Below are positions 39,764-60,496 of a stretch of DNA of 64,000 bases, in pieces. The DNA comes from Nocardiopsis mwathae (GTDB lineage: Bacteria; Actinomycetota; Actinomycetes; Streptosporangiales; Streptosporangiaceae), in assembly GCF_014201195.1 (NCBI RefSeq), contig NZ_JACHDS010000001.1:5828001-5892000 (forward strand), given 5' to 3'. Each line of letters begins with the position of its first letter. Within the stretch, counting starts at the first letter, position 1. The translations under genes and the position numbers were made by a program. The notes beneath the pieces are model-generated. The model saw only the letters and a list, made by a program, of their open reading frames with translations, ran no database searches and was not told the DNA's origin.

Positions 39764-41245
39764 TCATGCCGGGTAGGTCTCGCGCCACCATCGGCGTCCG
39801 CTTTCCGGCAGGGTGTCGATGGGGTCGTAGTAGACGTGGTGGCGGTCGAGGGCGTCGGTGGCATCGCCTTCGATCGCCGTCCGGTAGTTCTTGGTCCAGT
39901 ACGAGATACCGCGTTCCCGGTCGTAGGCGGATACCTGGTGCACCCACCGCTTCCCGACGAACGGGACATCGCACACGATGCGCGGGGTCGCGTAGCCCGG
40001 CAGGTAGCCCATGATCGCGTGCTGGAGTTCCTGGGCGCGGTTCAGGGACACCCGCCAGTGCTCGGAGTTGGGGATCATGTCGCACATGTAGAAGTAGTAG
40101 GGCACCAGCTGCGCCTCGCCGTGCATCGCGAAGCACAGGTCCAGCAGCTGGTCGGGGCTGTCGTTGACGCCGCGCATCAGCACTCCCTGGTTGCGCACGT
40201 CCCGCAGCCCGCTCTCCAGGAGCAGGTGCGTCGCCTCGGCGACCAGCGGGGTGACCGACTGGGCGTGGTTGATGTGTGTGTGCAGGGCGAGGCTGACCCC
40301 GCGGTCCCGGGCGGCCCGGGCCACCCGGGCCAGCCCGTCCAGGACCGATTCCTGGATCCAGTACTGCGGCAGCCCGGCGAGGGCCTTGCTCGCCAGCCGG
40401 ATGTCCCGCACGCTGTCCAGCTCCAGCAGCCGCAGCAGGAACGTTTCGAGCCGCGTCCAGGGAATGTTGGCGACGTCGCCGCCGGAGACGACGACGTCGC
40501 GCACGGTCGGTGTGCGCTGCAGGTAGTCGATGATCGCGTCCTGCCGGTCGGTCGGCGTGAGCCGCAGTTTCTCCTTCTTGATCTGCTCGGTGGAGTTCCC
40601 GACGAGGTCCATGCGCGTGCAGTGCCCGCAGTACTGCGGGCAGGTGGAGATGAGCTCGGCCAAGACCTTGGTGGGGTAGCGGTGGGTCAGGCCCTCCACC
40701 ACCCACATGTCGGCTTCGTGCAGGGAGTCGCGCTGGGCGAAGGGGTGGGAGGGGTGATAGGGGTGCCGGTCCGAGCGCACCGGAAGCATGTAGCGGCGGA
40801 TCGGGTCGGCGTAGAAGGCGTCGGTGAAGTCCGCGGGCGCGGGACGGGCGTGCGGAACCATGGTGTTGATCATCTGCGGCGGCAGCAGCATCGACATGGT
40901 CGACAGCTCGCGCTGGTCGGCGAGCAGATCGGTGTAGAAGGCGTCGGTGAGCAGGTTCCCCATGAGCGTGCGGAGCTGCTTGATGTTGCGGACACAGTTG
41001 ACGCGCTGCCATTGCGCGTTCCGCCACTGCGCCTCGGTGACGTCCGCCCACCCGGGGAACCGGCTCCAGTCCGGTTCGACCAGCGGTGTGCGGCGGTAGG
41101 TGTAGGGCTGCTCCGGGCGGCGCATCCCGGCCCGGGCACGTGCCGAGGCCGGAACGAAGTCGAAGGCGCGGTCGAGCGGCAACCGCCCGATGTCCGGTTC
41201 CGTGCCCTGAGGTGGGCCTGGCGCGCGCGTGTCGTCGAAGTTCAT
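39764..41245 (-). CDS. kamA: Lysine 2,3-aminomutase (radical SAM, KamA family)
   Basis: The 493-residue radical SAM/PLP enzyme should convert L-lysine to L-beta-lysine. The iron-sulphur cluster cysteines are Cys202, Cys206 and Cys209 in CPQYCGHCTRMDLVGNS, and DVVVSGGDVANIPW binds SAM. The C-terminal half has LHTHINHAQSVTPL, RNQGVLMRGVN and YYFYMCDMIP as in KamA proteins; a PLP lysine should lie nearby in the VPFVGKRWVHQV stretch. It closely resembles aminomutases of beta-lysine antibiotic clusters such as streptothricin, from memory. It is the last gene of the minus-strand operon, 49 bases after the carrier gene. A glutamate or arginine mutase is a less likely alternative. Confidence 0.88.
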   Translation of the reverse strand: MNFDDTRAPGPPQGTEPDIGRLPLDRAFDFVPASARARAGMRRPEQPYTYRRTPLVEPDWSRFPGWADVTEAQWRNAQWQRVNCVRNIKQLRTLMGNLLTDAFYTDLLADQRELSTMSMLLPPQMINTMVPHARPAPADFTDAFYADPIRRYMLPVRSDRHPYHPSHPFAQRDSLHEADMWVVEGLTHRYPTKVLAELISTCPQYCGHCTRMDLVGNSTEQIKKEKLRLTPTDRQDAIIDYLQRTPTVRDVVVSGGDVANIPWTRLETFLLRLLELDSVRDIRLASKALAGLPQYWIQESVLDGLARVARAARDRGVSLALHTHINHAQSVTPLVAEATHLLLESGLRDVRNQGVLMRGVNDSPDQLLDLCFAMHGEAQLVPYYFYMCDMIPNSEHWRVSLNRAQELQHAIMGYLPGYATPRIVCDVPFVGKRWVHQVSAYDRERGISYWTKNYRTAIEGDATDALDRHHVYYDPIDTLPESGRRWWRETYPA

Positions 41246-41294
41246 GGTCGTCTTTCCCCCGGGTTTCTTCGCTCTGGTCGCCGGCCGCCGCGAG

Positions 41295-41603
41295 TCATAC
41301 GTCGGGCGCCGGCTGCGGAAGCCGCCGCACGACGATCCGGCACAGCTCCTTGGGCCCGCTGTTCTCGGTGAGCAGGTCGCGCATTTCGAGTCGGACCCCG
41401 AAGCGCTTGCCGACCCGGCGGCCGATGATGATCAGGTCGAGCGAGTCGACCCCGAGCTCGTAGAAGGAGAGCGCAGGGTCGACCGCTCCGCCCGGCTCGC
41501 CGAGGTGGCGGGCGGTCTGCTGCACGACGTAGGCGAGGACGGAGTCCTCGGTGCGGTCGTCGGGAGGGGGGTTCTGGGCGTGTTCATCCCGAACGTCGGA
41601 CAT
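41295..41603 (-). CDS. Stand-alone peptidyl/acyl carrier protein
   Basis: The 102-residue carrier protein has the phosphopantetheine site at Ser54 in YELGVDSLDLIIIGRRV, with the helical flanks of carrier proteins. It has a disordered N-terminus of about 20 residues. The ATG at 41603 follows GGAGTGAG. In context it should be loaded with an amino acid, probably beta-lysine, by the adenylation enzyme of the same operon, and present it to the condensation enzyme at the other end of the cluster. The phosphopantetheinyl transferase must come from elsewhere. Confidence 0.85.
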   Translation of the reverse strand: MSDVRDEHAQNPPPDDRTEDSVLAYVVQQTARHLGEPGGAVDPALSFYELGVDSLDLIIIGRRVGKRFGVRLEMRDLLTENSGPKELCRIVVRRLPQPAPDV

Positions 41604-41679
41604 CGACTCACTCCATGTGGGTTCCCCACGGACGGTCCGTGGAGGCGCGCGACGGGCCGGCGGTGGCGGCCCGGGGCGG

Positions 41680-43461
41680 TCAGCCGCCGACCGCGCTGCG
41701 GTCGGCGGCCGTGGTCCATGACTTCCAGAGGTCGGCGTAGCGGCCGTCGGCCGCGAGGAGGTCGTCGTGACGGCCGTGCTCTGCGACACGGCCGTCGTCG
41801 AGCACCAGCACGCGGTCGCCGAGGAGGGCGATGTCCATGCGGTGGGCGATCGCGATCACCGTGCGCCCGCCGAGCAGGGCGGCGAACGAGCGCTCGATCC
41901 GGCGCGAGGCGGAGAGGTCCATCTCCGAGGTCGCCTCGTCGAGTACGAGCACCCGCGGGTCCACGAGCAGGATGCGGGCAAGCGCCAGCTGCTGGGCCAC
42001 CGCAGGCGGCACCTGGGTGCGGCCCGACCCCACCTCGGTGTCCAGACCATTGCGGCACGAGCGCACCCACCCGTCGGCTTCGACGGCGCGTAGCACGTCC
42101 CACAGCCGTTCGTCGGACTCCGCCTGTGCGCCGTCAAGTTCGTCGCCCAGCGTCAGGTTGTCCCTGATCGTGCCGGCGAAGATGTGCTGCTCCTGGGTGA
42201 CCATGGCGATCCTTGACCGCAGCCGCTCGGCCGGGATGTCGGCGATCGGCACGCCGCCGACGGTCGCCGTGCCCGAGCCGGGGGCATAGGTGCCGGTGAT
42301 GAGCTTCGCCAGCGTCGACTTGCCGCTGCCGGACGGGCCGACGACGACCAGGAACTCGCCCTCGGCGACGTCGAGGTCGACGCCGTGTAGTACCTCTGCC
42401 CCGGGCCGGTAGCCGAAGTGGATGTCGCGCAGCGCCAGCGCACTGCCCTCCGGCAGCGGGGCCCCCGTGCCGCTCTCGGTCGGCACCTGCTCGACGCCCA
42501 GGATGCGGCGCAGCGCGGCGTTGCCCAACTGCAGCTCGTCCATCCACTCCACCAGCTCGGCGAGGGGGTCGGCGAGCCGTTCGACGTAGAGCACCATCGC
42601 GGTCAGCGCGGCCAGCCCGACCAGGCCGTTGATGTAGGCGACGCCGCCGATCAGGAGCATCGCCGCCAACGGCACGAAGGTGGACAGATCGAGGACCGGC
42701 AGGAACCACGTCTGCAGGTTGACGGTGTGGCGCTGCGTCCGCTCGGCCCGGGCCAGCGCCCGCGCGCCGTGGGCGATCCGGCGCTCGGCCAGGCCGAGCG
42801 CCTCGACCGTCTCGGCGCCGTGCGCCGTCTCGTGCATGCTCGCCTGGACTTCGGCCCAGTCGGCGAGCAGCCGCTCGTAGGCGCGCGCCGCCCGGCGTCG
42901 GTACCAGCGCACGCCGATCACGAGTGGTGGCAGTGAGATGAGCATGACCAGGGCGAGCAGCGGCGAGGTCAGTACCATCGCCACGATCGTCAGCGCGGCG
43001 GTCAGCAGCGCCATCAGGATCTCGGGAAGGGCGAAGCGGACGCTCTCGCCGAGCTTCTCCACGTCCGCGGTGGAGCGGCTGAGGAGGTCCCCGGGATCCA
43101 CGGACTCCACCGTCGACATGGGGAGGCCGACGACCTTGCGGACGTAGCCGCCGCGTGCGTGGGCGAGCGCCTTCTCCCCGAGCACCACGGCGCGCATCCG
43201 CGCCAGTCGGCCCAGGAGGGTCTGGGCCAGGAGCACCCCGACGAAGGCGAGCGCGATGAGGTCGACCCGGGTGGCGGTCGTGCCGTCCTCGACCGATTCG
43301 ACGAGGTGGCCGAGCAGCTGCGGGCCGAGCAGGTCGGCGACCAGCGCCAGCAGGAACAGCACGACCATGGTCGCGACCTGCCCCTTGGATGCGGAGAGGA
43401 AGTCCCTGGTCCACAGGCGGACCTGGCGGCGTTCGGCCAGGGGCAGGCGGTTCGTGTTCAC
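41680..43461 (-). CDS. ABC exporter half, intact Walker A, degenerate signature
   Basis: The 593-residue half-transporter has six membrane helices and a C-terminal nucleotide-binding domain. Walker A is intact, GPSGSGKST at residues 375-383, and Walker B is [12 protein letters not shown]. The LSGGQ signature is replaced by [13 protein letters not shown]. The partner has the opposite defect, so together they make one good and one degenerate ATP site, the pattern of asymmetric heterodimeric exporters. The GTG start at 43461 overlaps the stop of the partner gene by four bases. It probably exports the cluster product. Confidence 0.88.
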
Positions 43462-45308
43462 GACTCTGCTTCCACGGACGAGCGGCCGGCGAGGGCCGCG
43501 GGGTCGGTCGGGGAGGCGGGGGCGGTGTCGGGGGGAGCGGGCGGATCGCCGATGTGGTGCAGTGCGTCGGCGACCGCCCACCACAGCGCGCTCTGGCTGA
43601 TCACCACGGTGGTGCGGCCCCGGCGCGTGCGTGCCACCGCGCGGGCGATGGCCGCTTCGGTCGGCGAGTCCACCGCGGAGGTGGGCTCGTCCAGAATCAG
43701 TACCTCCGGGGCGGCGTAGAGGGCGCGGGCGAGGACCAACCGCTGGCGTTGCCCCCCGGAGAGGAAGCGGCCGGCGTTGGTGACCACTTCGTCGGCCCCG
43801 CGCGGGAGGGCGTCGAGGACGTCCTGCGCACCGGCGGCGGACACCGCCCCCTCGAAGTCGGGGCCGTCCGGACCGAACCGCGCAGCGGTGAGCTCCTCGC
43901 GCAGCACGCCGGAGAACAGGACGTCGTTCTGGCCCACCCTCAGGATCCGGCGACGCACCGCGGCCGGGTCCACGCCGTGCAGCGGGACACCGTTGGCCGA
44001 TACCTCGCCGCCGACGTCCACGGGGGGCGTGTCGTGTTCGATCGGGCCATCGTCGGTTCCACCCGGGTCCGTGGCGCCGACGTCAGGGGCGGCTGTGCCG
44101 TCTTCTCCTTCGTCCGCGCCGCCGGGGTCCTCCGGGGGCAGGTCCGCATGCCCGGCCAACCGGGCCCCGAGGAGTCGGCCGAGGTCGCCCGGGGCGTTCA
44201 CGACGGTCAGTGCTCCGGGGGCGACCGTGATCCCGGTCTGCACGTCGTGCAGGGCCAGCGGCGCGCCGTCGAGGGCGGCCGGCTCCGCGCCCTCGGGGGG
44301 ACGCGGCCCCTCCAGGCGCAACAGGCGGCAGACCCGCCCGGCCGCGACGTAGCCGGCGCTCAGTGAGTCGACGGCGTTGGTCACGTTGCCGACGGCGATC
44401 CACAGGAACGTGGACAGCCCGTAGAAGGTGAACAGCTCGCCGGGGGAGATCGCCCCGGTCAGCGCGAGACGGGCGCCCAGCCAGGTGATGGCGATCGTGA
44501 CCAGGCCGGGGAACAGGATGCCCGCCGCGGTGATCCATGCCGCGCTGCTCCCTGCCGCGACGCCGGCGCGGCGGACGCGCTCGTTCAGGTCGTCGAACTG
44601 TGCGGTGAACTTCCGTTCGCCGCCGACCCCCCGCAGGATGCGCAGCCCGAAGATGATGTCGACGGAGCGCGCCGTCGCTCCGTCGAGAGTGTCGCGCTGC
44701 TCCTCGTTGCGCTCCCGCAGCGGGCGCAGCAGCGGCCCGATGGCCAGGACCGCGAGCGGGACCCCGACGATGACCGCGATGCCCAGCAGGGGTGATACCA
44801 GCAGCAGAAGAACCGACACCACCAGGAAGCCGAAGACGGAGCCGAAGGCGCGCCCCGCGCTCTCGAAGGCGTCGCCGACGTTCTCCACGTCGGAGGTGCC
44901 GACGGTCATCACCTCGCCCAGGCGCGCCTTGCGGGGCAGGGCGCCGCCCAGCTCGGCCACCCGCGTGGTGACCAGCCGCTGCGTGGTCACCTGCGCGTTG
45001 AGACCGCTGAGCGAGGCGGCCCGGTTGAGCGAGGTGCCGGCCACCGCCTGCAGCACGACGAGCCCCAGCGTCACGCCGGACCACGCGAGCAGGTCGGGCA
45101 TGGAGCCAGGGCGGATGCCCTCGTCGATGGCGCGGCCGATCACGAACGGCAGCAGCGCACCGGGGAGGATCCATAGCGCGCCGATGCCGCCGGTGGCGGC
45201 GACCAGGCCGGGGCGCAGCCGGGCGAGCCAGCCCAGGAACGGCCAGGGGCCCGAGACGTCCGGTGCGAGGGCGGGTCGGGGGGTCCGGGTGGTCGCTGTG
45301 CCGGTCAC
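43458..45308 (-). CDS. ABC exporter half, degenerate Walker A, intact LSGGQ
   Basis: The 616-residue half-transporter has six membrane helices and a C-terminal ATPase domain in which Walker A is lost ([16 protein letters not shown] in its place), followed by an acidic insertion of about 45 residues ([16 protein letters not shown]...). The signature [17 protein letters not shown] and Walker [13 protein letters not shown] are intact. It complements the other half. The GTG start at 45308 overlaps the stop of the adenylation gene by four bases, so all three are translationally coupled. Self-protection by export of the product is the likely role. Confidence 0.87.
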
Positions 45309-46900
45309 GGCGCCTCGTTCTCGTAGCGGGAGCGCGTCGCCTCCCGGTCGATCTTGCGGCTGCGGGTGTAGACGAACTCGGGGACCACGGTGATCGTGGA
45401 CGGGACGAGGTAGGGCGGGACGTTGGCCCGCAGGTAGGCCCTGATGCCAGTGGGGAGCGCGGCGGTGTCGGCACCGGGGCCGGGCAGTACGTAGGCGGCG
45501 AGCGCGTTGTGCCGCCCTTTCGGCCGGTCGACGACGAGTACGGCGCGCACCCCCGGGTGGCGGCCGATCCAGAACTCGACTTCGCCGAGGTCGAGCCGGA
45601 CCCCGCGGATCTTGACGACGTGGTCCTTCCTTCCGACGAACTCCAGGGCGCCCGACGCGTCGGCCCGGACCATGTCGCGGGTCCGGAAGTAGCGGGTGGG
45701 GCCGGCACCGAGGTCGAGGTCGGTGAACCTTTCCGCGGTCATCTCGGGTTGGCGGTGGTAGCGGAGCGCGATGCCGTCGCCGCCGACGAGCAGCTCGCCC
45801 TCGACGCCCGCCGCGGTCACGGGTTCGCCCCGCTCGTCGAGGATCCTGGCGTCCACGTGGGGGAGGGGGTGTCCGATGGGGACATGGCCCGCGGGTTCGG
45901 GTAACGCGAGCAGGTCGCGCAGGTCGATGGCGTGGGTGACCATCCCGGTCTCCGTGGCTCCGTAGGTGTTGAGCAGCCGGATGCGGTCCGCCCCGTCGAG
46001 CCGCCGCCAGCGTTCGAGCATGTCCGCGCGGACGGGCTCGCCGCCGATGACGACGGTGCGCAGGCAGGGCGGCAGGGCCGTGTCCTCTTCGAGCAGGTAG
46101 ACGACGAATTCGTTCCAGAACGCCGTGGGCAGATTGAGGGTCGTGATGCCGTAGTCGGTGACGATGCCGTGCAGGTCGATGTCGGCGGCGGCGTCCATGA
46201 CGACGCACCCGCCCTGGCTCAGCGTGGGCAGCAGCTCCTCCAGGCTGGTGTCCCAGAACAGCGGCGTGAAGTGCAGAACGCGGTCGGCGGGGCCGATGTC
46301 GTAGAGCTCGGTCAGCGCGGGCACCGTCACCGCCAGGACGCGATGGGTGAGCAGCGCTCCCTTGGGCGTTCCGGTGCTTCCGGAGGTGAACAGCAGGTAG
46401 GCGGTCCGGTCCGGCGAATGCGGCACCTCGGGTGGCTCGTGGGACGGGACGGAGGAGAGGTCCAGCCGGACCCGGTGGACCGGTTCGGGCAGCGGGGCCT
46501 CGTGCGCCGTGACGACCAGGACCTCCGCGAACCCGGCGCCGTCGACGAACGCGGAGAGCCGTTCCCCGACCATGGCAGGGTCGATCGGGCAGTAGTACCG
46601 GCCGGCGGCCATGATGCCCAACGCCGCGGCGATGGATGCGGTGGAGAAGCACTCGTACAGGCCGACGGGCAGTTCGGGGTCGCTGGGGAGCTCTTGCACC
46701 CGGTGGGCGACCAGGCTCACCATGTCGGCCAGTTCGCGGTAGGTGGTGGGGCGGCCGTTGTCGATCACGGCGGTGCCGTCCGCGTATCGGCGTGCCGTCG
46801 CGAAGAACGCGTCGATGATGTGCGTGAAGGGGGTGCCCGCGTCGTGCTCCGGCCCCCCGGTCGATGTCCTCAAAGTTGCGACTCCCAGCTCGTCACACAT
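45305..46900 (-). CDS. Stand-alone NRPS adenylation enzyme
   Basis: The 531-residue adenylation domain activates an amino acid as AMP ester and loads a carrier protein. Core motifs are [13 protein letters not shown] (A3), FWDTSLEE (A4, with the Asp that holds an amino group), NTYGATETG (A5), YFRTRDMV (A7) and SRKIDR (A10, catalytic Lys). No condensation or carrier domain is attached; the carrier and condensation enzymes are separate genes. The substrate cannot be read with confidence, but beta-lysine fits the operon. The ATG at 46900 has no clear ribosome site; a TTG at 46873 behind GGGAG is a good alternative. Confidence 0.87.
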
Positions 46901-47658: not shown

Positions 47659-47676
47659 TCCGGACGGTCCCGCGGG

Positions 47677-48564
47677 TCAGTCGCCCAACCAGTCCGCCAA
47701 CGCTGCGGCGGCCCGGTTTCCCCAGGTGGATCCGGTGTCAAGGGCCCACATCCAGAACTCCACCACCCGTACCAACGACCAGCGGCGCGCCAAGACGGGG
47801 TCCAGTTCCCCCGCTTCGACGATGACTTCGAGGCGACGCCGCAGCTCCCCGGGCCCCAGACGCGGGTCGAATCGGTTCCACAGCAGCGGGGCGACGCCGA
47901 ACTCCGGGTCGCCCAGCACCACCTTGGGGTCGATCGCCAGCCAGGGTTCGCGCCGCGCCCGCAGCACGTTGGCGTAATGCAGGTCCTGGTCGACCAACAG
48001 GTCACCGGCGTCGGGGCCCAGTTCCCGGCAGGTCTGGCGGGCGGCGTCGAGCACGGCGGAGGGGATGGGCACCCGAGGCGCGCCGTGCCACTGCCGGGCG
48101 TACTCCTCGGCGAGGGCCGCCAGCCGCGGGGGCCCGTCCCGCGGCGGCGTGACCGGCACACTCAGGCGGCGCAGCAGCCGGCCGGCGGCCGCCGCGGCCG
48201 TGTCGAGCGGCACTCGTTCGAGGCTGGCCTGGGGATCGAGGCGCTCCAGGAGCAGGGCACCGGCGGACTCCCGGTGCGCCAGAAGCCGGGCGGCGCCGTT
48301 GCCGGCCCATGCGGCCAGTGCCCAGGCCTCCCAGCGCGTCTTGTCGTCGCGCCAGGACACCTTCAGGGCCAGTGGCCCGTCCGTCCCGCGAACGGGAACC
48401 ACGATTCCGCAGTTCCCGTGCAGGACCGGGCCGTCATCGGGGCGCAGCCCCCACTCCCGGCAGATCCGGTCCACCGCCGCCGGAAGCGCGGAGAGCCAGC
48501 GCCGTCCTGCCGCGCCGTGTGCGGCGGTGATGCGTGCGTGAAAACCCGCGGGCACGTCGATCAC
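47677..48564 (-). CDS. APH(6)-like aminoglycoside phosphotransferase
   Basis: The 295-residue kinase matches the aminoglycoside/hydroxyurea kinase family that includes streptomycin 6-kinases APH(6). Shared features are VPAGFHARITAAHG at the start, ALKVSWRDDKTRWEAWALAAW, LLLERLDP, the catalytic Asp194 in VDQDLHYANVL and AIDPKVVLGDPEFG with the magnesium-binding Asp. The GTG start at 48564 follows GAGGAG. In a producer it would phosphorylate and inactivate the product, or make a protected precursor. It is transcribed away from the carbamoyltransferase gene. Confidence 0.85.
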   Translation of the reverse strand: MIDVPAGFHARITAAHGAAGRRWLSALPAAVDRICREWGLRPDDGPVLHGNCGIVVPVRGTDGPLALKVSWRDDKTRWEAWALAAWAGNGAARLLAHRESAGALLLERLDPQASLERVPLDTAAAAAGRLLRRLSVPVTPPRDGPPRLAALAEEYARQWHGAPRVPIPSAVLDAARQTCRELGPDAGDLLVDQDLHYANVLRARREPWLAIDPKVVLGDPEFGVAPLLWNRFDPRLGPGELRRRLEVIVEAGELDPVLARRWSLVRVVEFWMWALDTGSTWGNRAAAALADWLGD

Positions 48565-51898: not shown

Positions 51899-53200
51899 AT
51901 GTCGGCGAGCAGGCGTCCGCCGGGCGGGGGCGTGGCGGACACGCTACGGGCCGGGCGGGCCAGAACGGCCACGGCACACAGCGGTCGCACACGCGCCGTG
52001 ACGAGCGCGGGCACCGTGCTCTATCTGACCAATCAGTCCGCCTACCCACCCCACAGCGGCGGGCAGATGCGGGAGTGGCAGTTCCTCTCCCGCCTCGGCG
52101 ACCGGTACGACATCCACTTCCTGGCCATCACCCCCCACTACGACCGCGACGTGCGCACCGTGGACGCACTGCTCGGCCACTGCGCCTCGGCGACCTTCTT
52201 CGAGGCCGCCCCCGGCCCCGGCGACGAACCGGATCTGCCCGACCGCGTCCTGCAGTACCGCTGCGACCGCGTGGCCGACCACATCTCGCGCTTCCTCGCC
52301 ACCCACTCCGTCGACTTCATCCACGTCGAGGGCTACTTCCTCATGCGGCACGTCCCCGACACCCCGGGCACCCCGATCCTGCTGCTCGCCGAGAACATCG
52401 AGTACGCCCTGGACCGGGCACGCCAGGAGGTCGTCGGTGCCGAGCCCGTCGCCTGGACCCGCACCCGCGAGGTCGAACAGGCCGCATGGCGCCGCGCCGA
52501 CCTGTGCGGAACGGTCAGCGTGGACGACGCGGCCGTCCTCCGCCACGACCTGCCCACCGCGCGCATCCGCTGGCTCCCGTCCGGCTGCGACCACATCTCC
52601 GCCGACGACCCGCTCGCCGCGGAGTCGGCCGGCCTCGTCCCGCCCACGCCCCGCGGCCGCACCGTCACCTACGTCGGCAACTCGACCTGGGGGCCGAGCC
52701 GGGACGCCGCCCTGTACCTCCTCGGCGAGGTATGGCCGCAGGTCCTGGCCGAGGTGCCCGACGCGCGACTGCTCGTGGCAGGCAGCGGACAGGACCCCGA
52801 CGGCCTCGGGCTCACCGCGGTCGACCCCTCCGTCCACCTGCTGGGCGTGGTGCCCAGCCTTGCGCCGGTCCTTGCCGCCACCGACGTCTTCGTCTGCCCC
52901 AACCGCTTCGGCGGCGGGGTCAAGGCCAAGATCCTGGAGGCGCTCCACGCCGGGTGCGCGGTGGTGAGCACCTCCTTCGGGGCGCAGGGGGTGGGCCCCG
53001 TGGTCCAGGAGGCCCTGCTGACCGGAGACAGCACCGACGAGCTGGTGTTCGGCATCGTCCGGCTCCTCCGAGACGGCACCCTGCTCGACAAACAGCGCTC
53101 CCTGGTCCGTGACGCCATCCACACCCTGCCCACCTGGGACGAAGCCACCGACCGGATGCACCGCGCGTGGACGGAGATGCGCACCCCGGCCGCAGGCTGA
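51899..53200 (+). CDS. GT4-type glycosyltransferase
   Basis: The 433-residue GT-B enzyme has an N-terminal acceptor domain (YLTNQSAYPPHSGGQMREW) and a C-terminal donor domain with TYVGNSTWGPSRDAALYLL, LLVAGSGQDPDG and the GT4 Glu-rich part CPNRFGGGVKAKILEALHAG. It should transfer a sugar from a nucleotide sugar to the scaffold. The ATG at 51899 follows AAGGAG; a GTG at 51998 gives a more compact N-terminus but has no ribosome site. The donor sugar cannot be inferred. Confidence 0.87.
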   Translation: MSASRRPPGGGVADTLRAGRARTATAHSGRTRAVTSAGTVLYLTNQSAYPPHSGGQMREWQFLSRLGDRYDIHFLAITPHYDRDVRTVDALLGHCASATFFEAAPGPGDEPDLPDRVLQYRCDRVADHISRFLATHSVDFIHVEGYFLMRHVPDTPGTPILLLAENIEYALDRARQEVVGAEPVAWTRTREVEQAAWRRADLCGTVSVDDAAVLRHDLPTARIRWLPSGCDHISADDPLAAESAGLVPPTPRGRTVTYVGNSTWGPSRDAALYLLGEVWPQVLAEVPDARLLVAGSGQDPDGLGLTAVDPSVHLLGVVPSLAPVLAATDVFVCPNRFGGGVKAKILEALHAGCAVVSTSFGAQGVGPVVQEALLTGDSTDELVFGIVRLLRDGTLLDKQRSLVRDAIHTLPTWDEATDRMHRAWTEMRTPAAG

Positions 53201-53269: not shown

Positions 53270-54403
53270 GTGCCCGTTCGACCCAGCCCGCAGACCGCGT
53301 CCCCGGGGGCCGCCCCCGCCACGGCGCGGCCCACCGTCGCCTCCTACAACGAGTGGGACCCCCTGGAAGAGGTCATCGTCGGTACCGCCCGCGGCGCCGC
53401 CCGAGTCGCGTTCGAACCCGCGCTGGCCGCGTACTACCCCCTGGGCGACCCGGAGCGGAACTTCGGCGGCGCCCCCTTCCCCCAAGAGGACATCGACCGG
53501 GCCGAGCGCCAGCTCGACGCGTTCGCGCTGCGCCTGGAGAAGGAGGGTGTGACCGTCCGGCGCCCCGAACCCGTCATGCACCACGAGGGCTACACCACCC
53601 CCGACTTCGCGGCCGCCAACGGGCATGCCCAGACCTGCCCCCGCGACGTCCTGCTCGTCATCGGCGACCGGATCATCGAGGTGCCCATGGCCCAGCGCGG
53701 CCGCTTCTTCGAGTACCGCGCCTACCGCAGGCTGGTAAAGGAGTACTTCGCGGCCGGAGCACAGTGGGTGGCCGCGCCCAGGCCGCAACTCGCCGAGGAG
53801 ACCTACGTCCCCGGTTACACCACCGAGGACACCTACTACGACTTCGCCGACCACCCCGCGCTGACCGAGTTCGAGCCGCTCTTCGACGCGGCCTCCTTCA
53901 CCCGGTGCGGCCGCGACATCTTCTGCCAGCCCGACGTGGTCACCAACCGGTTCGGCATCGACTGGCTGCGCCGCTACCTCGGCCCCGAGTTCAACGTGCA
54001 CATCGTGCAGTTCTCCGACCGCTACCCCCAGCACATCGACACCACTCTGGTCCCGTTGCGGCCGGGACTCGCCCTCACCAACCCCGAGCGGCCGTTCAAG
54101 GACGACATGGCCGACTTCTTCACCGAGAGCGGCTGGCGGCTGGTCGACGCGGTGCCGTCGGTGCGCACCGGCCCGCCGTCCACACGCGACGTCAGCAACT
54201 GGATCTCCACCAACATCCTCATGCTCAACCCCGAGACCGCCGTGGTGGAGGCCGCCGAGGAGCCCCTCACGGACCTCTTCCGCTCCCTGGGCATCGACGT
54301 CATCGAATGCGAGTTCGACGCGGTCTTCCGATTCGGCGGCAGTTTCCACTGCTGCACCCTGGACATCCGGCGCCAGGGCGAGCTGCAGAGCTACTTCGGC
54401 TGA
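53270..54403 (+). CDS. Amidinotransferase (AGAT/StrB1-like)
   Basis: The 377-residue enzyme should transfer an amidino group from L-arginine to an amine. It starts VASYNEWDPLEEVIVGTARG, nearly the same as StrB1 of streptomycin synthesis. TCPRDVLLVIGDRIIEVPMA, HIDTTLVPLRPGLALTNPER and the catalytic Cys361 in GGSFHCCTLDIRRQG are typical, with catalytic Asp and His in the first two. The GTG start follows GAGGAGAA. The acceptor may be an inosamine (streptomycin-like), glycine or an amino group on another unit. The next gene begins one base after its stop. Confidence 0.92.
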   Translation: MPVRPSPQTASPGAAPATARPTVASYNEWDPLEEVIVGTARGAARVAFEPALAAYYPLGDPERNFGGAPFPQEDIDRAERQLDAFALRLEKEGVTVRRPEPVMHHEGYTTPDFAAANGHAQTCPRDVLLVIGDRIIEVPMAQRGRFFEYRAYRRLVKEYFAAGAQWVAAPRPQLAEETYVPGYTTEDTYYDFADHPALTEFEPLFDAASFTRCGRDIFCQPDVVTNRFGIDWLRRYLGPEFNVHIVQFSDRYPQHIDTTLVPLRPGLALTNPERPFKDDMADFFTESGWRLVDAVPSVRTGPPSTRDVSNWISTNILMLNPETAVVEAAEEPLTDLFRSLGIDVIECEFDAVFRFGGSFHCCTLDIRRQGELQSYFG

Positions 54404-54404
54404 C

Positions 54405-55622
54405 ATGGACACCACCGGACCGGTCACGGACGGGCGTGCCCGCCGCTCCGCCGCGGCCGACGTCGACGGGTCGATCCTGGCCAAGCCGAGCCTTCTCGGC
54501 GGCACGGGCACAGCGGCGGAACCTCGCTGGGTGGAGCGCGCCGAGGGCGCCCACCTGTGGGACGCGGCGGGCCACCGCTACCTCGACATGGTCCTGGGTT
54601 TCGGGTCGGTGATCCTCGGCCACGCCGACCCGGAGGTCACCGAGGCCGTCGTCGCCGACATCCGGCGCGGCGTCTCGGCGACCCTGCGCAAGGAGGCCGA
54701 GCTCGAACTGGCCGAGCTCCTCACCGCGACAGTGCCCGGGGCCGAGATGGCGATGCTCCTGAAGACCGGGTCGGACGCCACCTCGGCCGCCGTCCGCGTG
54801 GCGCGCGCCCACACCGGCCGCGAGCGCGTCCTGCGCTGGGGCTACCAGGGCTGGCACGACTGGTGCGCACCGCGCGGTGCCGGTGTCCCGCGCGCCTGCC
54901 GGGAGCTCACCGACACCCTGCCCTTCGACGATGTCGAGGCCCTGCGGGCCCGGTTCCGCGACCACGGCGACCGGATCGCGGCGGTCGTGGTCATGCCCGC
55001 CGGCGACGAGCCCGTGAGCCGCGAGTACCTGCTGGAGTGCCGGCGATTGGCACACCACCACGGCAGCCTGTTCGTCCTCGACGAGATCCGCACCGGCTTC
55101 CGGCTCGCCCTCGGCGGAGCGCAGGAGTACTTCGGAGTCACCGCCGACCTCGTCACCGTCAGCAAGGCGATGGCCAACGGCCACCCGGTCTCCGCGCTGC
55201 TCGGCCGCCGCGACGTCCTGCGCACCCTGGCGTCGGTGTCGATGTCCTCGGTGTTCTTCCGCAGCACCGACGGCATGGCAGCCGCACTGGCCACCATCCG
55301 GCGGCTGCGCGACACGGCCGCCATCGCCGACGTGTGGCGACACGGCCGCCGACTGCAGGAGGGAATGGCCGCCGAGGCGCGCGACGCCGGGGTGCCGGTG
55401 CGCGTCGTCGGCCTCCCCCCGATGCCGTTCCACCGGTTCGACCTCACCGGTGAGGAACTCCGCCGCGCCGAGGAGGTCTTCTACGACACGGTCTGGTCGG
55501 ACGGGCTCCTGCTGCATCGCTCCCACCACTGGTTCACCTGCGCCGCGATGACCACGGCCGACATCGACCATGCGGTGGCCGTGATCGGACGCGGGTACCG
55601 AGCGGTTCGGGACACCGGGTGA
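54405..55622 (+). CDS. Class III aminotransferase (GSA-aminotransferase-like)
   Basis: The 405-residue PLP enzyme matches the glutamate-1-semialdehyde aminotransferase-like branch of class III. GHRYLDMVLGFGSVILGHADP, KTGSDATSAAVRVARA, FVLDEIRTGFR and the PLP lysine Lys254 in VTVSKAMANGHP are visible. It could add the amine that the preceding amidinotransferase then modifies, which would fit the one-base gap between the two genes. The stop overlaps the start of the SurE gene by four bases (GTGA). Substrate unknown. Confidence 0.87.
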   Translation: MDTTGPVTDGRARRSAAADVDGSILAKPSLLGGTGTAAEPRWVERAEGAHLWDAAGHRYLDMVLGFGSVILGHADPEVTEAVVADIRRGVSATLRKEAELELAELLTATVPGAEMAMLLKTGSDATSAAVRVARAHTGRERVLRWGYQGWHDWCAPRGAGVPRACRELTDTLPFDDVEALRARFRDHGDRIAAVVVMPAGDEPVSREYLLECRRLAHHHGSLFVLDEIRTGFRLALGGAQEYFGVTADLVTVSKAMANGHPVSALLGRRDVLRTLASVSMSSVFFRSTDGMAAALATIRRLRDTAAIADVWRHGRRLQEGMAAEARDAGVPVRVVGLPPMPFHRFDLTGEELRRAEEVFYDTVWSDGLLLHRSHHWFTCAAMTTADIDHAVAVIGRGYRAVRDTG

Positions 55623-56503
55623 ATCGGGAGACGACGGGGAGCGGACCACCCACCCCCTCCACGCCCCCGTTCCGACGGGTCCTGGTGGCCAATGACGACG
55701 GCGCCGACGCGCACGGGCTGTCCGTCCTCACCGCGGCGGCGGCCGCGCTCGGTCCGCCCTTGGTCCTCGCCAACGACATCGGCTGGACGGCGGCCGGCAC
55801 CTCACTGCGCTTCCCGGGCGGAGACGCCCGACGCATCATCCGGGACGGCGACCGCTGGACCTTCGCCGACACCCCGCCGGCCCTCCTGGCCGCAGCGGCC
55901 TGCTCCGGTGCACTCGGCCCCGCGCCGGACGCCGCCCTCGTCGGAGTGAACCACGGGCCCAACGTCGGCGGCATGGCCGCGCACTCCGGAACCGTCGGCG
56001 CCGCACTGACCGCGGCCGCCCACGGCCTCCCGGCGGTGGCGGTCAGCAGCGACGACGTCCACGCCACCCACGGCGCGGAGGACGGCCCCCCGCACCACGG
56101 GCTCGCCGCGGCCCTCGCGGTGCGACTGGTGTCCCTGGTGGAACGGCTGCGGCGGCGAGAAGGGGAGGGGATCGCGCTCAACGTGAACGTCCCCAACCTC
56201 CCCGCCGAGCAGGTGGCCGGGATCCGGATCGCGGTTCCGGCCCGGGCGCTGCCCGCAGCCCGGCTGGACGCCCACGGCGCGGTGAGGCCCGGTATCGACA
56301 TCGACGAGCCCCCCGACCCCGGAAGCGACATCGCGCTGCTGCGCGACGGGTTCGCCACCGTCACCGTCGTGTGCGGCGCTCTCCCGGAACGGGGGCTGCG
56401 CGACGGCGTGGCCGCGATCGAGCGGGATCTGCTCGGCGGGGGAGGTCGGGCCGGGGCCGCGGCGGTGGCAAGAGCACACAACCACAGCACACGGATCGGA
56501 TAG
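55619..56503 (+). CDS. SurE-like phosphatase
   Basis: The 294-residue protein has the SurE fold signature: VANDDGADAHG with the metal Asp pair, the conserved Ser/Asn region in GVNHGPNVGG and HSGTVGAALTAAAHG, and NVNVPNLP. SurE proteins are metal-dependent nucleotidases/phosphatases. Inside a biosynthetic operon, coupled by GTGA to the aminotransferase, it probably removes a phosphate from an intermediate, as phosphorylated intermediates are used in streptomycin synthesis. The GTG start at 55619 is set by the overlap. Confidence 0.87.
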   Translation: MNRETTGSGPPTPSTPPFRRVLVANDDGADAHGLSVLTAAAAALGPPLVLANDIGWTAAGTSLRFPGGDARRIIRDGDRWTFADTPPALLAAAACSGALGPAPDAALVGVNHGPNVGGMAAHSGTVGAALTAAAHGLPAVAVSSDDVHATHGAEDGPPHHGLAAALAVRLVSLVERLRRREGEGIALNVNVPNLPAEQVAGIRIAVPARALPAARLDAHGAVRPGIDIDEPPDPGSDIALLRDGFATVTVVCGALPERGLRDGVAAIERDLLGGGGRAGAAAVARAHNHSTRIG

Positions 56504-56515
56504 CGGGGAAGAGAG

Positions 56516-58186
56516 ATGAACGGTCGGTCAGGTTGGGTCGCCGGGGTCAACCACGGCGCGCACGACGCGTCCTGCGCACTGCTCCACCACGGTGAACTCG
56601 TGGTCGCCGTCGAGCAGGAGCGCCTGTCGCGCCGCAAACGCGCGGTGGACCAGTCACCCGCCCGGGCACTGCGCTACTGCCTCGACTTCGCGGGGATCGA
56701 CCTCACCGAGGTCGACTGCCTCGCCTTGGGGTCGGACCACGACGGGCTGGCCGCATGGCTCGGCGTGGAGGGGGAGGAACGGGAACGGGCCCTGCCCTAC
56801 GACCGCCCCGGGTGGCTCTTCCCCGACGAGGTCTTCCACGGAGCACGCCCCCGCGCGGTCCGGGCCGTGCCGCATCACCTCGCCCACGCGGCCAGTGGGT
56901 ACTGGCCCAGCGGGTTCGGGGAGTGCGCCGTGCTGGTGATCGACGCGATGGGGGAGAACACCGGCACATCGATCGCCGTCGCCCGGGACGGCGGCGTGGA
57001 GATCCTGGAGAGCTACGGGGTGGAGACCTCGCTCGGCTTCTTCTACGAGGCCGCGTCGGAGTTCGCCGGGCTGGGCCGCCAGGACGGCGGCAAGCTCATG
57101 GGGCTCGCCTCCTACGGCCGCCCCGTCCACCCCGCCGCGCTCGCCTACCGGGACGGCGCCATCGTCTGGGACGGTGTCCCCGAGAGCACCCGGCGCGGTC
57201 GCGCACTGATCGAGGAGCGTTCCGAAGAGCTCCAGCGCTACTTCGCCGACCACACCTACCCCTACTCACGCCGCCGCGGCGAGTCGGTCATGGCCTACGC
57301 CGACTTCGCCGCCTCGGCACAGGCCGCCCTGGAGGAGACCATCCTCGGCCTGGCCCGGCGCGCCCGCGAGCTGACCGGCCTCAACCGGCTCGCCGTGGCC
57401 GGGGGCGTCGGACTGAACTGCACGGCCAACGGGCGGCTCGCCGACAGCGGCATCTTCGACGAGGTCTACGTCCAGCCGATGGCCCACGACGCCGGCGTCG
57501 CCCTGGGCGCGGCCCTCGCGGTCGCCGCCGAGCACCGGCCCGGCCTGCAGGGCGTGTCCCGCATGTCCCACGCCTACTGGGGGCCCGACCTCACGGCGGA
57601 GGACACCGCTGCCGCCTTCGCCGCCGCCGGAGTCCGGGCCGAACGGTTCGGCCTTGAGGAGCTGCTGCCCCGCGTGGTCCGCATCCTCACCGCGGGCGGC
57701 ATCGTCGCCTGGGGACAGGGGCGCGCCGAGGTGGGACCCCGGGCGCTCGGCGCGCGCAGCCTGCTCGGCGACCCGCGCGACCGCGAGACTCTGACCCGGC
57801 TCAACCTCGCGAAGAACCGGGAGATGTGGCGGCCGCTCGCGCCCAGCGTGCAAGAGGAGCGCTTCGCGGAGTTCTTCGAGGGGACACCGAACGCGTTCAT
57901 GATCGTGGCGGCCCGGGTCCGCGAGGAGGCGCGGCGGAGGATCCCCGCCGTGGTGCACGTCGACCACTCCGCCCGACCCCAGGCCGTGCGGCGCGAGGAC
58001 AATCCCGCCTACCACGCCCTGCTGTCGTCCTTCGACGCTCAGACGGGTGTCCCCGTCCTGGTCAATACGTCCCTCAACGTCGCGGAGGAGCCCATGGCCT
58101 CCTCCGCCGACGACATCCTCTCCACCTACCTCAAGAGCGGGGCGGACGCCGTCGTCATCGGCGACCACCTCGCCGTCCGGGACTGA
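56516..58186 (+). CDS. O-carbamoyltransferase (NodU/TobZ family), copy 2
   Basis: The 556-residue enzyme is a second carbamoyltransferase, close in length to TobZ. Features are GVNHGAHDASCALLHHGELV, HHLAHAASGYWPSGF, DAMGENTGTSI, GGVGLNCTANGRLADS, GWGQGRAEVGPRALGARS-like sequence (VAWGQGRAEVGPRALGAR) and VLVNTSLNVAEEPM. It differs clearly from copy 1, so two hydroxyls, or a carbamoyl group and a ring-forming step, may be served. The ATG at 56516 follows GGGAAGAGAG. Confidence 0.92.
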   Translation: MNGRSGWVAGVNHGAHDASCALLHHGELVVAVEQERLSRRKRAVDQSPARALRYCLDFAGIDLTEVDCLALGSDHDGLAAWLGVEGEERERALPYDRPGWLFPDEVFHGARPRAVRAVPHHLAHAASGYWPSGFGECAVLVIDAMGENTGTSIAVARDGGVEILESYGVETSLGFFYEAASEFAGLGRQDGGKLMGLASYGRPVHPAALAYRDGAIVWDGVPESTRRGRALIEERSEELQRYFADHTYPYSRRRGESVMAYADFAASAQAALEETILGLARRARELTGLNRLAVAGGVGLNCTANGRLADSGIFDEVYVQPMAHDAGVALGAALAVAAEHRPGLQGVSRMSHAYWGPDLTAEDTAAAFAAAGVRAERFGLEELLPRVVRILTAGGIVAWGQGRAEVGPRALGARSLLGDPRDRETLTRLNLAKNREMWRPLAPSVQEERFAEFFEGTPNAFMIVAARVREEARRRIPAVVHVDHSARPQAVRREDNPAYHALLSSFDAQTGVPVLVNTSLNVAEEPMASSADDILSTYLKSGADAVVIGDHLAVRD

Positions 58187-58222
58187 CGTCCCACCGCCTT
58201 CCCCCACCTTCCACCGACGATG

Positions 58223-58312
58223 CCCCCGCCCCTTTCGCCGATCCCGGGAGAACGGTTCGTGCCCCGGCGAGAACTCCCACCGCCCTCCCGGGATCGGCGA
58301 AAGGGGCGGGGG
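58223..58312 (+). repeat. Hairpin element with conserved loop, copy C
   Basis: Perfect 28-base arms (58223-58250 and 58285-58312, core CGCCGATCCCGGGAG) enclose 34 bases. The loop matches the one at 24718-24783 in reverse at 26 of 34 positions. It lies between copy 2 of the carbamoyltransferase and the condensation gene, where it may also act as a terminator or RNA stabiliser. Confidence 0.8.
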
Positions 58313-58327
58313 TGAGGAGTACCCGAC

Positions 58328-59635
58328 ATGACCGCGGCACCGACCGAACCTCCGGAGATCGAACCCGCTGCGGTGGACGCCGGCAGCGCGTTCCGCGTCT
58401 GGAACGACGACGAGATGTGGTTCGCCCCACCTCACGGCCAAGCCCGGCCGACCCTGTCCACCCACTGCTGGTGGGAGCTGCCCGCCGATGCGGTCCCGGA
58501 CCTGCTGTTCGAGGCGGTGCGCCTGGTCGCGTCCCGGCACGACATGCTGACGAGCCGGATCGAACGCCGCGGCGACCGGATCCACTGCCGCCCCGGTGCG
58601 GCCGAACCCGAGATCCGGCACCTGCGCACCGGCATCGCCGTCGGGAACGCCGGGGAGGCGGAGACCCTCGGCGAGCTCGACCCGTTCACGGGTCCCATGC
58701 TCCGGGCCGTGCTGGACCGGCGTTCCGCCCCCGCGCGCTTCTGCCTCCAGATCAGCCACGCCGTCCTGGACGGCTGGTCGATGGACCTGCTGCTGCGGGA
58801 GCTGGCCGAGACCTACGAGCGGCTGGCCGTCGGCGCGCCCGTCGACGCCCGCCCTGCGCCGCAGATGCGTGACTGGGCCGCCGCCCAATGGGACATCCTG
58901 AAGGCGACGCGCGACGAACGGCTGGACGGGTGGCGGCGCCTGCTCGAAGCGGGGCCGCTCGCGCCGGCCCCCGTGCCCGGCACCCCGGGCGATCGCTCCG
59001 GCACGGTCCGCTGGCGGGCCCCGGAGGGCCTGCCGACCGCGGTGCGGTCCACCGCCCGCCGCCTGCGCTGCTCGCCCACGGTGCTGCTGGTCACCCTGCT
59101 CGGCCGCGCTCTGGTGGCCGAGCACGGAGCCGCGGCGGCGGTCCGTGTCCCCTTCGCCAACCGGCACCATCCCGGGGCATTGGACGTCATCGGCAACCTG
59201 AGCACCCAGGTTCCCGTCCTGTTCTCCGCCGGCGACGCCCACGCCGACCGGGATCTCGGCGACCTCACGGTGGCGGCGAACCGGCGCATGCTGGACGCGA
59301 TCGCGTTGCTGCCCCTGTCCTTCGAAGCGGCGCTCGCCGAGCTATGGAGTTCGGCGCAGGCCGCGCGCGCCGACCGGCAGACCCCCTTCTTCGCCCTGGA
59401 GGTGGAGGACGGGGCCGACGACGACGAGGACGACCTGGCCGGCGGCGTCCTCACCGACGTGGTCTCGCCCATGGACGAGCAGGACGGCTGCGAGGTCACC
59501 GCCGAGTTCGACGAGGACGAGGCGGTGATCACCGCCGGGTGGCGCGGCCTCACTCGGTCGGAGGAGGAGCGCATGCACGCGGTCTTCGGAGAGTTCACCG
59601 CACGGCTGGGGGAGCTGGCGACGCCCGCCGCGTGA
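58328..59635 (+). CDS. Stand-alone NRPS condensation-domain enzyme
   Basis: The 435-residue protein is a single condensation domain, joining a carrier-bound aminoacyl group to an amine or hydroxyl. The active site reads SHAVLDGWS with catalytic His144 and Asp148; the first His of the usual HHxxxDG is Ser. VPFANRHHPGALDVIGNLSTQVPV fits the later latch motif region. It has no carrier domain, so the carrier in the minus-strand arm should be the donor. Amide formation with beta-lysine on the glycoside is the likely step. Confidence 0.85.
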   Translation: MTAAPTEPPEIEPAAVDAGSAFRVWNDDEMWFAPPHGQARPTLSTHCWWELPADAVPDLLFEAVRLVASRHDMLTSRIERRGDRIHCRPGAAEPEIRHLRTGIAVGNAGEAETLGELDPFTGPMLRAVLDRRSAPARFCLQISHAVLDGWSMDLLLRELAETYERLAVGAPVDARPAPQMRDWAAAQWDILKATRDERLDGWRRLLEAGPLAPAPVPGTPGDRSGTVRWRAPEGLPTAVRSTARRLRCSPTVLLVTLLGRALVAEHGAAAAVRVPFANRHHPGALDVIGNLSTQVPVLFSAGDAHADRDLGDLTVAANRRMLDAIALLPLSFEAALAELWSSAQAARADRQTPFFALEVEDGADDDEDDLAGGVLTDVVSPMDEQDGCEVTAEFDEDEAVITAGWRGLTRSEEERMHAVFGEFTARLGELATPAA

Positions 59636-60124
59636 CGGTCCCCACGCGCGGCCTCCCGCGACACGCCGAGGTCAGCGAGGTGGGGGCCGCGCCGCCTTCC
59701 ACGTGATATCGCGGCCGCGCGCCGGGGCACGGTCATCGGGCAACCTGAGCACTGCCGCGACGTCGTACACTGGTAGTGGCCTACGGCAGCATGCGGCTCC
59801 GGAGTACGAGTACCGCCACGTGCCGGTCTTACGTTTTGACCAGGCACAACCGATTCGGTACTCTCTAACTTCGTGCCCGTGAGTCAACGGGTCACACGTG
59901 TGTGCTTTTTCGCCGGTCCCGCATGTGGGCGGCGAGGAAGAGTGCCACGTGACACCTCCTCCCACGTGATTCGACCACCAGGTCGGGCGTATCGACATCC
60001 GCCATGCTTGGGGTAGAGCGCGACACGCCCGGATGCGGGGGTCGGGGGGAACGGGAAATTCAGCAGGTCAATAGCGATATCGGCTAAGAGAACCGGCGTA
60101 GGTCACGAGGAAGACGGAGACGCG
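59636..60124 (+). promoter_or_regulatory. str operon upstream region and promoter
   Basis: A strong promoter pair, TTGACC (59836-59841) and TACTCT (59859-59864), has a 17-base spacer and lies about 260 bases before rpsL. A second -10 like TACACT is seen near 59766. No gene is supported. The long leader resembles those of other str operons. Nothing that looks like the cluster's own regulator or an attachment site was found. Confidence 0.6.
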
Positions 60125-60496
60125 GTGCCCACCATCCAGCAGCTGGTCCGTAAGGGCCGACAGGACAAGCTCACAAAGAGCCAGACCCCGGCGCTGAAGG
60201 GGAGTCCGCAGCGTCGTGGTGTGTGCACGCGTGTTTACACCACCACGCCCCGAAAGCCGAACTCCGCGCTGCGCAAGGTCGCCCGTGTGAAGTTGAGCAG
60301 CGGTATCGAGGTCACTGCCTACATTCCCGGTGTCGGGCACAACCTGCAGGAGCACTCCATCGTGCTCGTGCGCGGTGGCCGTGTGAAGGACCTGCCGGGT
60401 GTCCGGTACAAGGTCATCCGCGGTTCGCTGGACACTCAGGGCGTCCGTAACCGCAAGCAAGCGCGTAGCCGTTACGGCGTTAAGAAGGAGAAGTAA
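60125..60496 (+). CDS. rpsL: 30S ribosomal protein S12 with Arg43 (streptomycin-resistance type)
   Basis: The 123-residue S12 lies at the decoding site. The loop that contacts streptomycin reads [18 protein letters not shown]. Position 43 (Met counted as 1) is Arg, encoded by CGA at 60251-60253, where Mycobacterium tuberculosis and E. coli have Lys. Lys43Arg is the most common streptomycin-resistance change in M. tuberculosis. The second resistance loop [12 protein letters not shown] (around residue 88) is unchanged. The GTG start follows GGAAGACGGAG. The gene sits next to the predicted antibiotic cluster and starts the rpsL-rpsG-fusA-tuf operon. Confidence 0.97.

Follow-up and report, generated by a model that had tools for sequence, protein, structure and literature searches.

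A biosynthetic gene cluster between rpoC and rpsL of Nocardiopsis mwathae as a candidate source of a beta-lysyl, guanidino, carbamoyl glycoside

In genomic position the closest described system is the GE2270 cluster (pbt) of Planobispora rosea, which has rpoC upstream and rpsL, rpsG, fusA and a resistant tuf gene downstream, the latter (tufR) protecting P. rosea and not Streptomyces coelicolor according to the accessible part of the report (PMC3943966). Likewise, the berninamycin cluster adjoins tuf-fusA-rpsG-rpsL (PMC9290621, as available in part), and the dityromycin producer is reported to resist its compound through its own altered ribosomal protein S12, which the accessible text of that study calls the first self-resistance through a ribosomal protein (PMC6763770). 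Here we examine a stretch of 64,000 nucleotides (nt) of Nocardiopsis mwathae (contig NZ_JACHDS010000001.1, positions 5,828,001 to 5,892,000; hereafter the window), in which about 20 kb of biosynthetic genes lie between rpoC and rpsL, the gene for S12. GE2270 resembles the window in that a cluster occupies the rpoC-rpsL interval with a resistant str-operon gene (tufR) downstream; it differs as a thiopeptide with EF-Tu as its target, whereas the window has an altered S12 and a predicted resistance. P. rosea belongs to the Streptosporangiaceae, the family of the window genome. The berninamycin locus is also a translation-inhibitor cluster adjoining the str operon, but it lies at the tuf end beside a duplicated tuf, its likely resistance gene being a 23S rRNA methyltransferase in the available portion of the source (PMC9290621). 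The dityromycin producer, like the window, carries S12 substitutions, although these are Val32Thr, Arg55Lys and Val78Ile and the compound is another one; the accessible part of that article mentions no adjacency of the cluster to rpsL (PMC6763770). Given these precedents, the arrangement of a cluster beside its target is already known in kind, and the proposal of a first-pass annotation of the window that a target-joined cluster may be a new family finds no support in that form.

In chemistry the closest compounds are those of the LL-BM782 group, (beta-lysyloxy)myo-inositol guanidino mannosides of Nocardia, described by 1981 judging from the titles of cited references, with the beta-mannoside confirmed by synthesis over a route of oxidation, oxime, reduction and urea (PMC7229163, accessible in part). 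No gene cluster for LL-BM782 or myomycin was found in the open-access literature, nor was any paper on myomycin found there. Myomycin is a member of the LL-BM782 group, carries carbamoyl groups and acts like streptomycin. For the glycosyl-inositol assembly, the guanidino group and the attachment of beta-lysine in these compounds, the cluster encodes candidate functions. Streptothricin is comparable to the product read from the window in bearing beta-lysine on a carbamoylated amino sugar (available part of PMC11702664). Compared with streptothricin, viomycin and capreomycin, the cluster has no large nonribosomal peptide synthetase (NRPS), and no streptolidine or capreomycidine genes were recognised among its 14 genes. 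Viomycin and capreomycin have beta-lysine modules, and in that of viomycin a lysine 2,3-aminomutase is accompanied by stand-alone adenylation (A), carrier and condensation (C) proteins. The streptomycin cluster encodes an APH(6)-type kinase, an amidinotransferase for a guanidino group, a DegT-type inosose aminotransferase and dTDP-sugar genes. Its kinase and amidinotransferase are paralleled in the window, as are a predicted guanidino group and the involvement of S12 residue 43; conversely, no DegT-type aminotransferase or dTDP-sugar genes occur among the 14 cluster genes, to which that search was limited, and the amidinotransferase encoded there is less like StrB1 than like AGAT.

The 14 cluster genes form two divergent groups at 39764-59635, with an open reading frame (ORF) of 110 amino acids, preceded by an apparent ribosome-binding sequence, between them (Table 1). 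In order of transcription, the leftward group comprises the APH(6)-like kinase, the A domain, the two halves of an ATP-binding cassette (ABC) exporter (half 1, then half 2), the carrier protein and the lysine 2,3-aminomutase-like KamA. The rightward group (48887-59635) comprises carbamoyltransferase 1, the PhyH oxygenase, the glycosyltransferase, the amidinotransferase, a class III aminotransferase, the SurE phosphatase, carbamoyltransferase 2 and the C domain. All 14 genes are open and free of internal stops, with third-position GC contents of 0.88-0.96 against 0.92-0.94 for rpoB and rpoC. Every gene named by the first-pass annotation was recovered, as was the block of about 20 kb between rpoC and rpsL; only the class III aminotransferase was missing from its list. 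Families were assigned by sequence comparison with Pfam, NCBIfam and the PDB.

Table 1. Features of the rpoC-rpsG region, numbered from the first nucleotide of the window.
Feature	Position	Strand	Basis
rpoC, left anchor of interval	32201..36076	+	RpoC 98% identical to G001
Proline-rich ORF, weak DUF4190-like C-terminus	36234..39650	+	DUF4190 18.6 bits, cut-off 35
GC-rich hairpin, very stable, between converging proline-rich ORF and kamA	39651..39763	.	Folding vs shuffles
KamA, lysine 2,3-aminomutase-like radical S-adenosylmethionine enzyme	39764..41245	-	PDB 2a5h 137.5 bits
Free-standing carrier protein	41295..41603	-	PF00550 46.3 bits; DSL motif
ABC exporter half 2	41680..43461	-	PF00664+PF00005; Walker A intact, LSGGQ lost; GTG start at 43461
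ABC exporter half 1	43458..45308	-	PF00664+PF00005; LSGGQ intact, Walker A lost
Free-standing A domain	45305..46900	-	PF00501 215 bits
Small ORF, 110 amino acids	47326..47658	+	No Pfam or NCBIfam match at E<=0.01
APH(6)/hydroxyurea kinase-like phosphotransferase	47677..48564	-	PF04655 101.8 bits; catalytic Asp + Asn present
O-carbamoyltransferase 1	48887..50899	+	PF16861+PF02543
PhyH-type Fe(II)/2-oxoglutarate oxygenase	50990..51829	+	PF05721 117 bits; HxD + distal His
GT-B glycosyltransferase	51998..53200	+	PF13692 75 bits
Amidinotransferase	53270..54403	+	PDB AGAT 319, SxtG 304, HsvA 287, StrB1 238 bits; catalytic GxxFHC
Class III aminotransferase	54405..55622	+	PF00202 143 bits; PDB GSA aminomutases, C-6' aminotransferases
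SurE-type phosphatase	55619..56503	+	PF01975 94 bits
O-carbamoyltransferase 2	56516..58186	+	PDB NovN 311, TobZ 310 bits; 36% identical to carbamoyltransferase 1
Free-standing C domain	58328..59635	+	PF00668 51 bits; SHxxxDG in place of HHxxxDG
rpsL upstream region, homologous to G001	59658..60124	.	Resumes 22 nt past last cluster stop
rpsL (single copy), encoding S12 with Arg43 (CGA)	60125..60496	+	
rpsG, ribosomal protein S7	60499..60969	+	97% identical to G001

With catalytic motifs intact, the cluster enzymes look functional. KamA, which has no Pfam match at E<=0.001 and reaches 160 bits with the NCBIfam model lys_2_3_AblA, below its cut-off of 525, keeps CxxxCxxC and, when aligned to 2a5h, the Asp residues of both YYxYxCD and the VDxP motif; in lysine 2,3-aminomutase these two Asp positions bind the side chain of the lysine, and the enzyme would serve in beta-lysine supply. 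The A domain has the specificity code DTENVGTMV(K), read by alignment at the GrsA positions. Scanning the class for A proteins at E<=1e-70, with four candidates scored per genome, returned matches in 5 of 345 genomes, the window's own included. Five A domains other than that of the window were matched, and the three codes read, all from the class genomes G640 and G445, were DTEVVGTLV, DTEDVGTLI and DTENVGTLV (genomes G016 and G606 were left out); each of them agrees with the window code in D-T-E and V-G-T. The DTEVVGTLV and DTEDVGTLI domains lie on stretches that also carry a KamA (66% and 72% identical, about 12 and 3.5 kb away), and the occurrence of codes resembling DTENVGT near other KamA genes supports the reading that the window's A domain activates beta-lysine. 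The beta-lysine A domain of viomycin may have a code like DTEDVGT; the literature search returned no match to the A codes. The exporter halves are complementary, Walker A being kept in half 2 and LSGGQ in half 1. Finally, the best PDB relative of the PhyH oxygenase is kanamycin B dioxygenase (6s0u, 62 bits), and at E<=0.001 the amidinotransferase is matched by neither Pfam nor NCBIfam.

From this gene content we infer the substrates, the order of steps, the product, its site of action and the resistance as follows. The glycosyltransferase would join a sugar to myo-inositol (or its phosphate) drawn from primary metabolism, SurE would remove the phosphate, the PhyH oxygenase would convert a hydroxyl to a ketone, and the class III aminotransferase would aminate this ketone before the amidinotransferase forms the guanidine. 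The two carbamoyltransferases would attach carbamoyl groups; KamA would make beta-lysine, to be activated by the A protein, held on the carrier and transferred onto the core by the C protein; and the heterodimeric transporter would export the product, while the APH(6)-like kinase, as a probable self-protection enzyme, and an S12 that already has Arg at residue 43 would shield the producer. The cluster holds a candidate for each decorating step of LL-BM782 (amination, guanidine, carbamoyl and beta-lysyl): beta-lysine supply and activation are covered at the level of sequence, by the KamA residues and the A code; O-carbamoylation by two enzymes recognised through Pfam, the second also matching NovN and TobZ. 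For the guanidino group there is a candidate amidinotransferase with its catalytic motif, and the amine could come from the aminotransferase and the oxygenase. No cyclitol synthase was found among the cluster genes, and none would be needed for a myo-inositol core. These features support the guanidino-, carbamoyl- and beta-lysyl-bearing glycoside that had been proposed from the first reading of the sequence, and a product of this general kind is highly probable. The comparison with myomycin drawn at the same time is strengthened by the LL-BM782 skeleton as published (PMC7229163, accessible in part). A product specifically of the LL-BM782/myomycin type has an even chance of being correct, the core of such a product probably being mannosyl-inositol.

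A number of observations weigh against an LL-BM782/myomycin-like product. At E<=1e-3 the glycosyltransferase has no PDB relatives other than phosphatidylinositol mannosyltransferases (PimA/PimB), which speaks for a mannosyl-inositol, but these matches are weak (31-33 bits), and its best NCBIfam profile, TIGR03087 of a PEP-CTERM-system glycosyltransferase, is matched below cut-off at 97 bits. Furthermore, three of its four PDB mannosyltransferase relatives are named alpha, whereas LL-BM782 is a beta-mannoside, made moreover by a producer of another lineage; PimA makes alpha bonds, and GT4-type enzymes retain configuration. StrB1 is a more distant relative of the amidinotransferase than AGAT or SxtG, and the kinase is a distant PF04655 relative that has no PDB match and, at 108.6 bits, falls short of the NCBIfam APH_6 equivalog cut-off of 325. 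KamA is not diagnostic alone, as a 67% identical copy in G012, a genome of another genus of the family, stands beside lysine 5,6-aminomutase in a catabolic setting, and the 72% identical one in G445 has a polyketide synthase nearby.

Some of these points would also fit a new aminoglycoside-like ribosome inhibitor with the same guanidino, carbamoyl and beta-lysyl decorations on a core other than mannosyl-inositol. The glycosyltransferase resembles alpha-mannosyltransferases and the evidence for the acceptor is weak, and no close relative of the amidinotransferase was found. An amidinotransferase scan over one genome per species, in which detection required one of six exact peptide patterns, confirmed 136 loci, and among the best 80 of these no amidinotransferase was more than 50% identical; in 341 genomes of the family identities did not exceed 49%, the window's own gene aside. 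Neither did the glycosyltransferase have a match at E<=1e-50 in 339 other genomes of the class (five candidates scored per genome), and of the 53 plasmid records matching it the best among the matches listed was 33% identical. With amidinotransferases at no more than 50% and no close glycosyltransferase match, no orthologous cluster was found. Against a different core, the cluster offers a candidate for each LL-BM782 step, and no core-forming enzyme for another scaffold was recognised; we consider such a core unlikely, though it is the more serious of the chemical alternatives weighed here. On balance we lean towards a self-contained cluster for an LL-BM782/myomycin-like, carbamoylated, guanidinylated, beta-lysyl glycoside acting at the streptomycin/S12 site.

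Within the genus one further genome (G001) was compared, and its site is empty. RpoB, RpoC, S12 and S7 of the window are 96%, 98%, 100% and 97% identical to their counterparts in G001, where 585 nt separate the proline-rich ORF from rpsL and no cluster protein is matched at E<=1e-5 in 40 kb around the site. Nucleotide homology to G001 ends at 39639 and restarts at 59658, 22 nt beyond the last cluster stop codon, the region upstream of rpsL being 91.6% identical over 546 nt that reach into the beginning of rpsL (aligned window 59658-60185). The block of about 20 kb sits between the hairpin and this upstream region, and since homology stops and resumes at these points it has been gained or lost cleanly. 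Genome-wide searches of G001 with the amidinotransferase, A protein, glycosyltransferase, kinase and KamA gave no amidinotransferase match at E<=1e-20 (5 of 6 candidates scored), no A-protein match at E<=1e-70 (4 of 49), no glycosyltransferase match at E<=1e-50 (5 of 18) and no kinase match (all 23 scored), and a KamA-type protein at 29% identity only. The first-pass annotation had suggested comparing the interval in relatives, and in G001, the one genome checked for this, the same genes do not stand in the same place.

In the window, 24,049 nt separate the end of rpoC (36076) from the start of rpsL (60125), of which 3.4 kb are the proline-rich ORF. A similar ORF also occurs in relatives: of 40 other genera sampled, 15 have a match to its C-terminus close to rpsL, and by this comparison it reads as part of the ordinary interval, outside the cluster. 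It also appears to be fast-evolving, at 52% identity to its G001 counterpart against 98% for RpoC. The family has 68 genera, and for 40 of them we surveyed one genome each, selecting contigs that extended far enough. The rpoC-rpsL distance was measurable in 39, with a median of 2864 nt and a range of 372-9164 nt; the interval of the window is unusually long. No biosynthetic cluster was seen in the interval in the six genomes of this sample whose ORFs were read. In the 40th genome, G102 (locus L173), no rpoC end lies within 12.1 kb upstream of rpsL, and apparent MurT/GatD-like and proline-rich genes there suggest a rearrangement. At the left edge of the cluster, the hairpin at 39651-39763 (compared with shuffled sequence, z = -6.4 on one strand and -4.5 on the other) has no T-run, and a simple scan found no consensus terminator in it; it is a probable shared terminator of the proline-rich ORF and kamA. 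At the right edge, no terminator-like site was found on the coding strand between the C-domain gene and rpsL, the folding of 59636-59740 being unremarkable, so that read-through is conceivable and transcription from the cluster into rpsL possible.

The gene adjacent to the cluster carries a resistance-type substitution. The single rpsL of the window encodes Arg at position 43 of S12, Met counted (TTTPRKPNS), and S12 would be the target of the product. In E. coli, Lys42Arg in S12, equivalent to position 43 here, gives streptomycin resistance (available part of PMC6763770), and S12 is counted among seven resistance-indicator proteins in the accessible text of PMC9290621. With an exact pattern, which misses S12 genes with other nearby changes, Arg43 was matched in 5 of 341 family genomes, of which two were false, leaving the window genome (G000), G001 and G012. 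A second Arg43 rpsL in G198 and G231 was rejected, as the 24-base matches there are not rpsL and no S12 match was found at the loci concerned (L037, L148). In a sample of the class, Arg43 was found in 2 of 394 genomes, both of the window genus, after the false G198 was discarded, and in none of the 353 class genomes outside the family. A control with residue 43 left open, covering the family only, matched 184 of 200 genomes, and Lys43 was read in all 40 genus representatives, which were drawn from genomes already matching the open-residue pattern. Codon 43 is CGA in the window and CGG in G001, both two changes from any Lys codon, which argues that Arg43 is no fresh single-step or laboratory mutation. 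The literature search gave no earlier case of an S12 streptomycin-site substitution as producer self-resistance. Together, Arg43 and the APH(6)-type kinase support the earlier suggestion that the product acts at the streptomycin site, which we regard as likely.

As to why residue 43 is altered, several findings point away from the cluster. G001 carries the identical Arg43 S12 without a cluster at the site, the rpsL genes of the two genomes differing in three codons, all synonymous and codon 43 among them; Arg43 is accordingly not restricted to cluster carriers, and it is ruled out as proof of cluster self-resistance. The G012 genome has no match to the amidinotransferase or to the APH(6)-like kinase, and the streptomycin producer Streptomyces griseus is without an S12 flag among the table rows of PMC9290621, a source available in part. 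That Arg43 was fixed because of this cluster is thus a tentative proposal. One form of it is that the substitution was selected as cluster self-resistance in the ancestor of the genus and that the cluster was afterwards cleanly lost from G001, where the altered S12 stayed. Such a history would fit the near absence of Arg43 elsewhere among the sampled Actinomycetes and the two-step CGN codon of both species, whereas the G001 site holds no cluster remnant, two genomes cannot separate gain from loss, and the third-position difference between CGA and CGG is neutral; we treat it, too, as a possibility short of probable.

Other S12 variants were seen in the family. The S12 of G012 (L036:8675-9043) combines Arg43 with Arg88, at an rpoC-rpsL interval of ordinary length, about 0.8 kb; this genome was rejected as a second Arg43 producer because its 67% identical KamA adjoins lysine 5,6-aminomutase (PF09043) genes and is therefore catabolic. 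Arg88 (GRVRDLPG) accompanies Lys43 in no fewer than three of the family's genera (g24, g32 and g55; L029, L030, L032, L033, L034, L180, L181, L185), position 88 being another one linked to streptomycin resistance. A Glu-to-Val change in PGVGH is not special, with Val in 27 of 29 family S12 sequences read and Ile in the other two.

The 80 amidinotransferase loci were also compared with all cluster proteins, and seven of them (L057, L060, L067, L072, L089, L076 and L044) share three to seven at 26-47% identity; as orthologous clusters they were rejected, since the A codes differ in the six that were read (L067 was left out). These loci bear on the rival reading that the product is an unrelated metabolite, such as a guanidinylated peptide or a siderophore, with proximity to rpsL due to chance and Arg43 an ancient neutral trait of the genus. 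The presence of Arg43 without a cluster in G001 would agree with this, as would the sets of amidinotransferase, A and ABC genes at L057, L060, L067 and L072, three of them also with a C match. The A domains of L057, L060 and L072, however, lie in ORFs of 1030-1656 amino acids with the code DAESFGD rather than DTENVGT, whereas the NRPS parts of the window are all free-standing, and the combination of an APH(6)-type kinase with carbamoyltransferases points to an aminoglycoside-type product, so that an unrelated metabolite appears quite improbable.

A further resemblance was found in another family of the class, where contig C810 of G640 (L144:337-8786) encodes a carbamoyltransferase, a carrier with a C domain, the A domain with code DTENVGTLV and both ABC halves in a row. 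Its exporter halves are 46% and 53% identical to those of the window, and identities are 36-53% for all parts except the C domain, for which recognition came from Pfam alone; this may be a distant relative of the cluster, cut off by the contig end. Three more contigs of G640, two carrying an amidinotransferase and the third a kinase, showed no linked set of cluster genes. The window genome itself holds a second amidinotransferase (G000:C1:5320305-5321387; L147:9306-10400), 34-37% identical, which adjoins a pre-ATP-grasp/PGM1-type ligase and a major facilitator superfamily transporter and possibly belongs to another small peptide-type cluster.

The window thus holds a candidate for the first cluster of an orphan antibiotic class, which would also be the second cluster, after GE2270, to lie beside its target between rpoC and rpsL. 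Novelty would lie in the class of compound, in an Arg43-bearing S12 gene next to the cluster it belongs with, and in a second use of this interval by a pathway unrelated to the first. More speculatively, rpoC-rpsL may be a recurrent landing site that ties unrelated translation-inhibitor clusters to an altered str-operon target, in which case the window would provide the first self-resistance at the streptomycin site of S12 and the first genetic basis for beta-lysyl inositol guanidino mannosides. The cluster offers a testable candidate for LL-BM782/myomycin biosynthesis in which every decorating enzyme is named, and a natural S12 Arg43, rare in Actinomycetes, directly adjoins a cluster with a product for which binding at this site is plausible. 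Along with GE2270, these results mark the rpoC-rpsL interval as a place in which to seek new translation inhibitors with the target gene next door.

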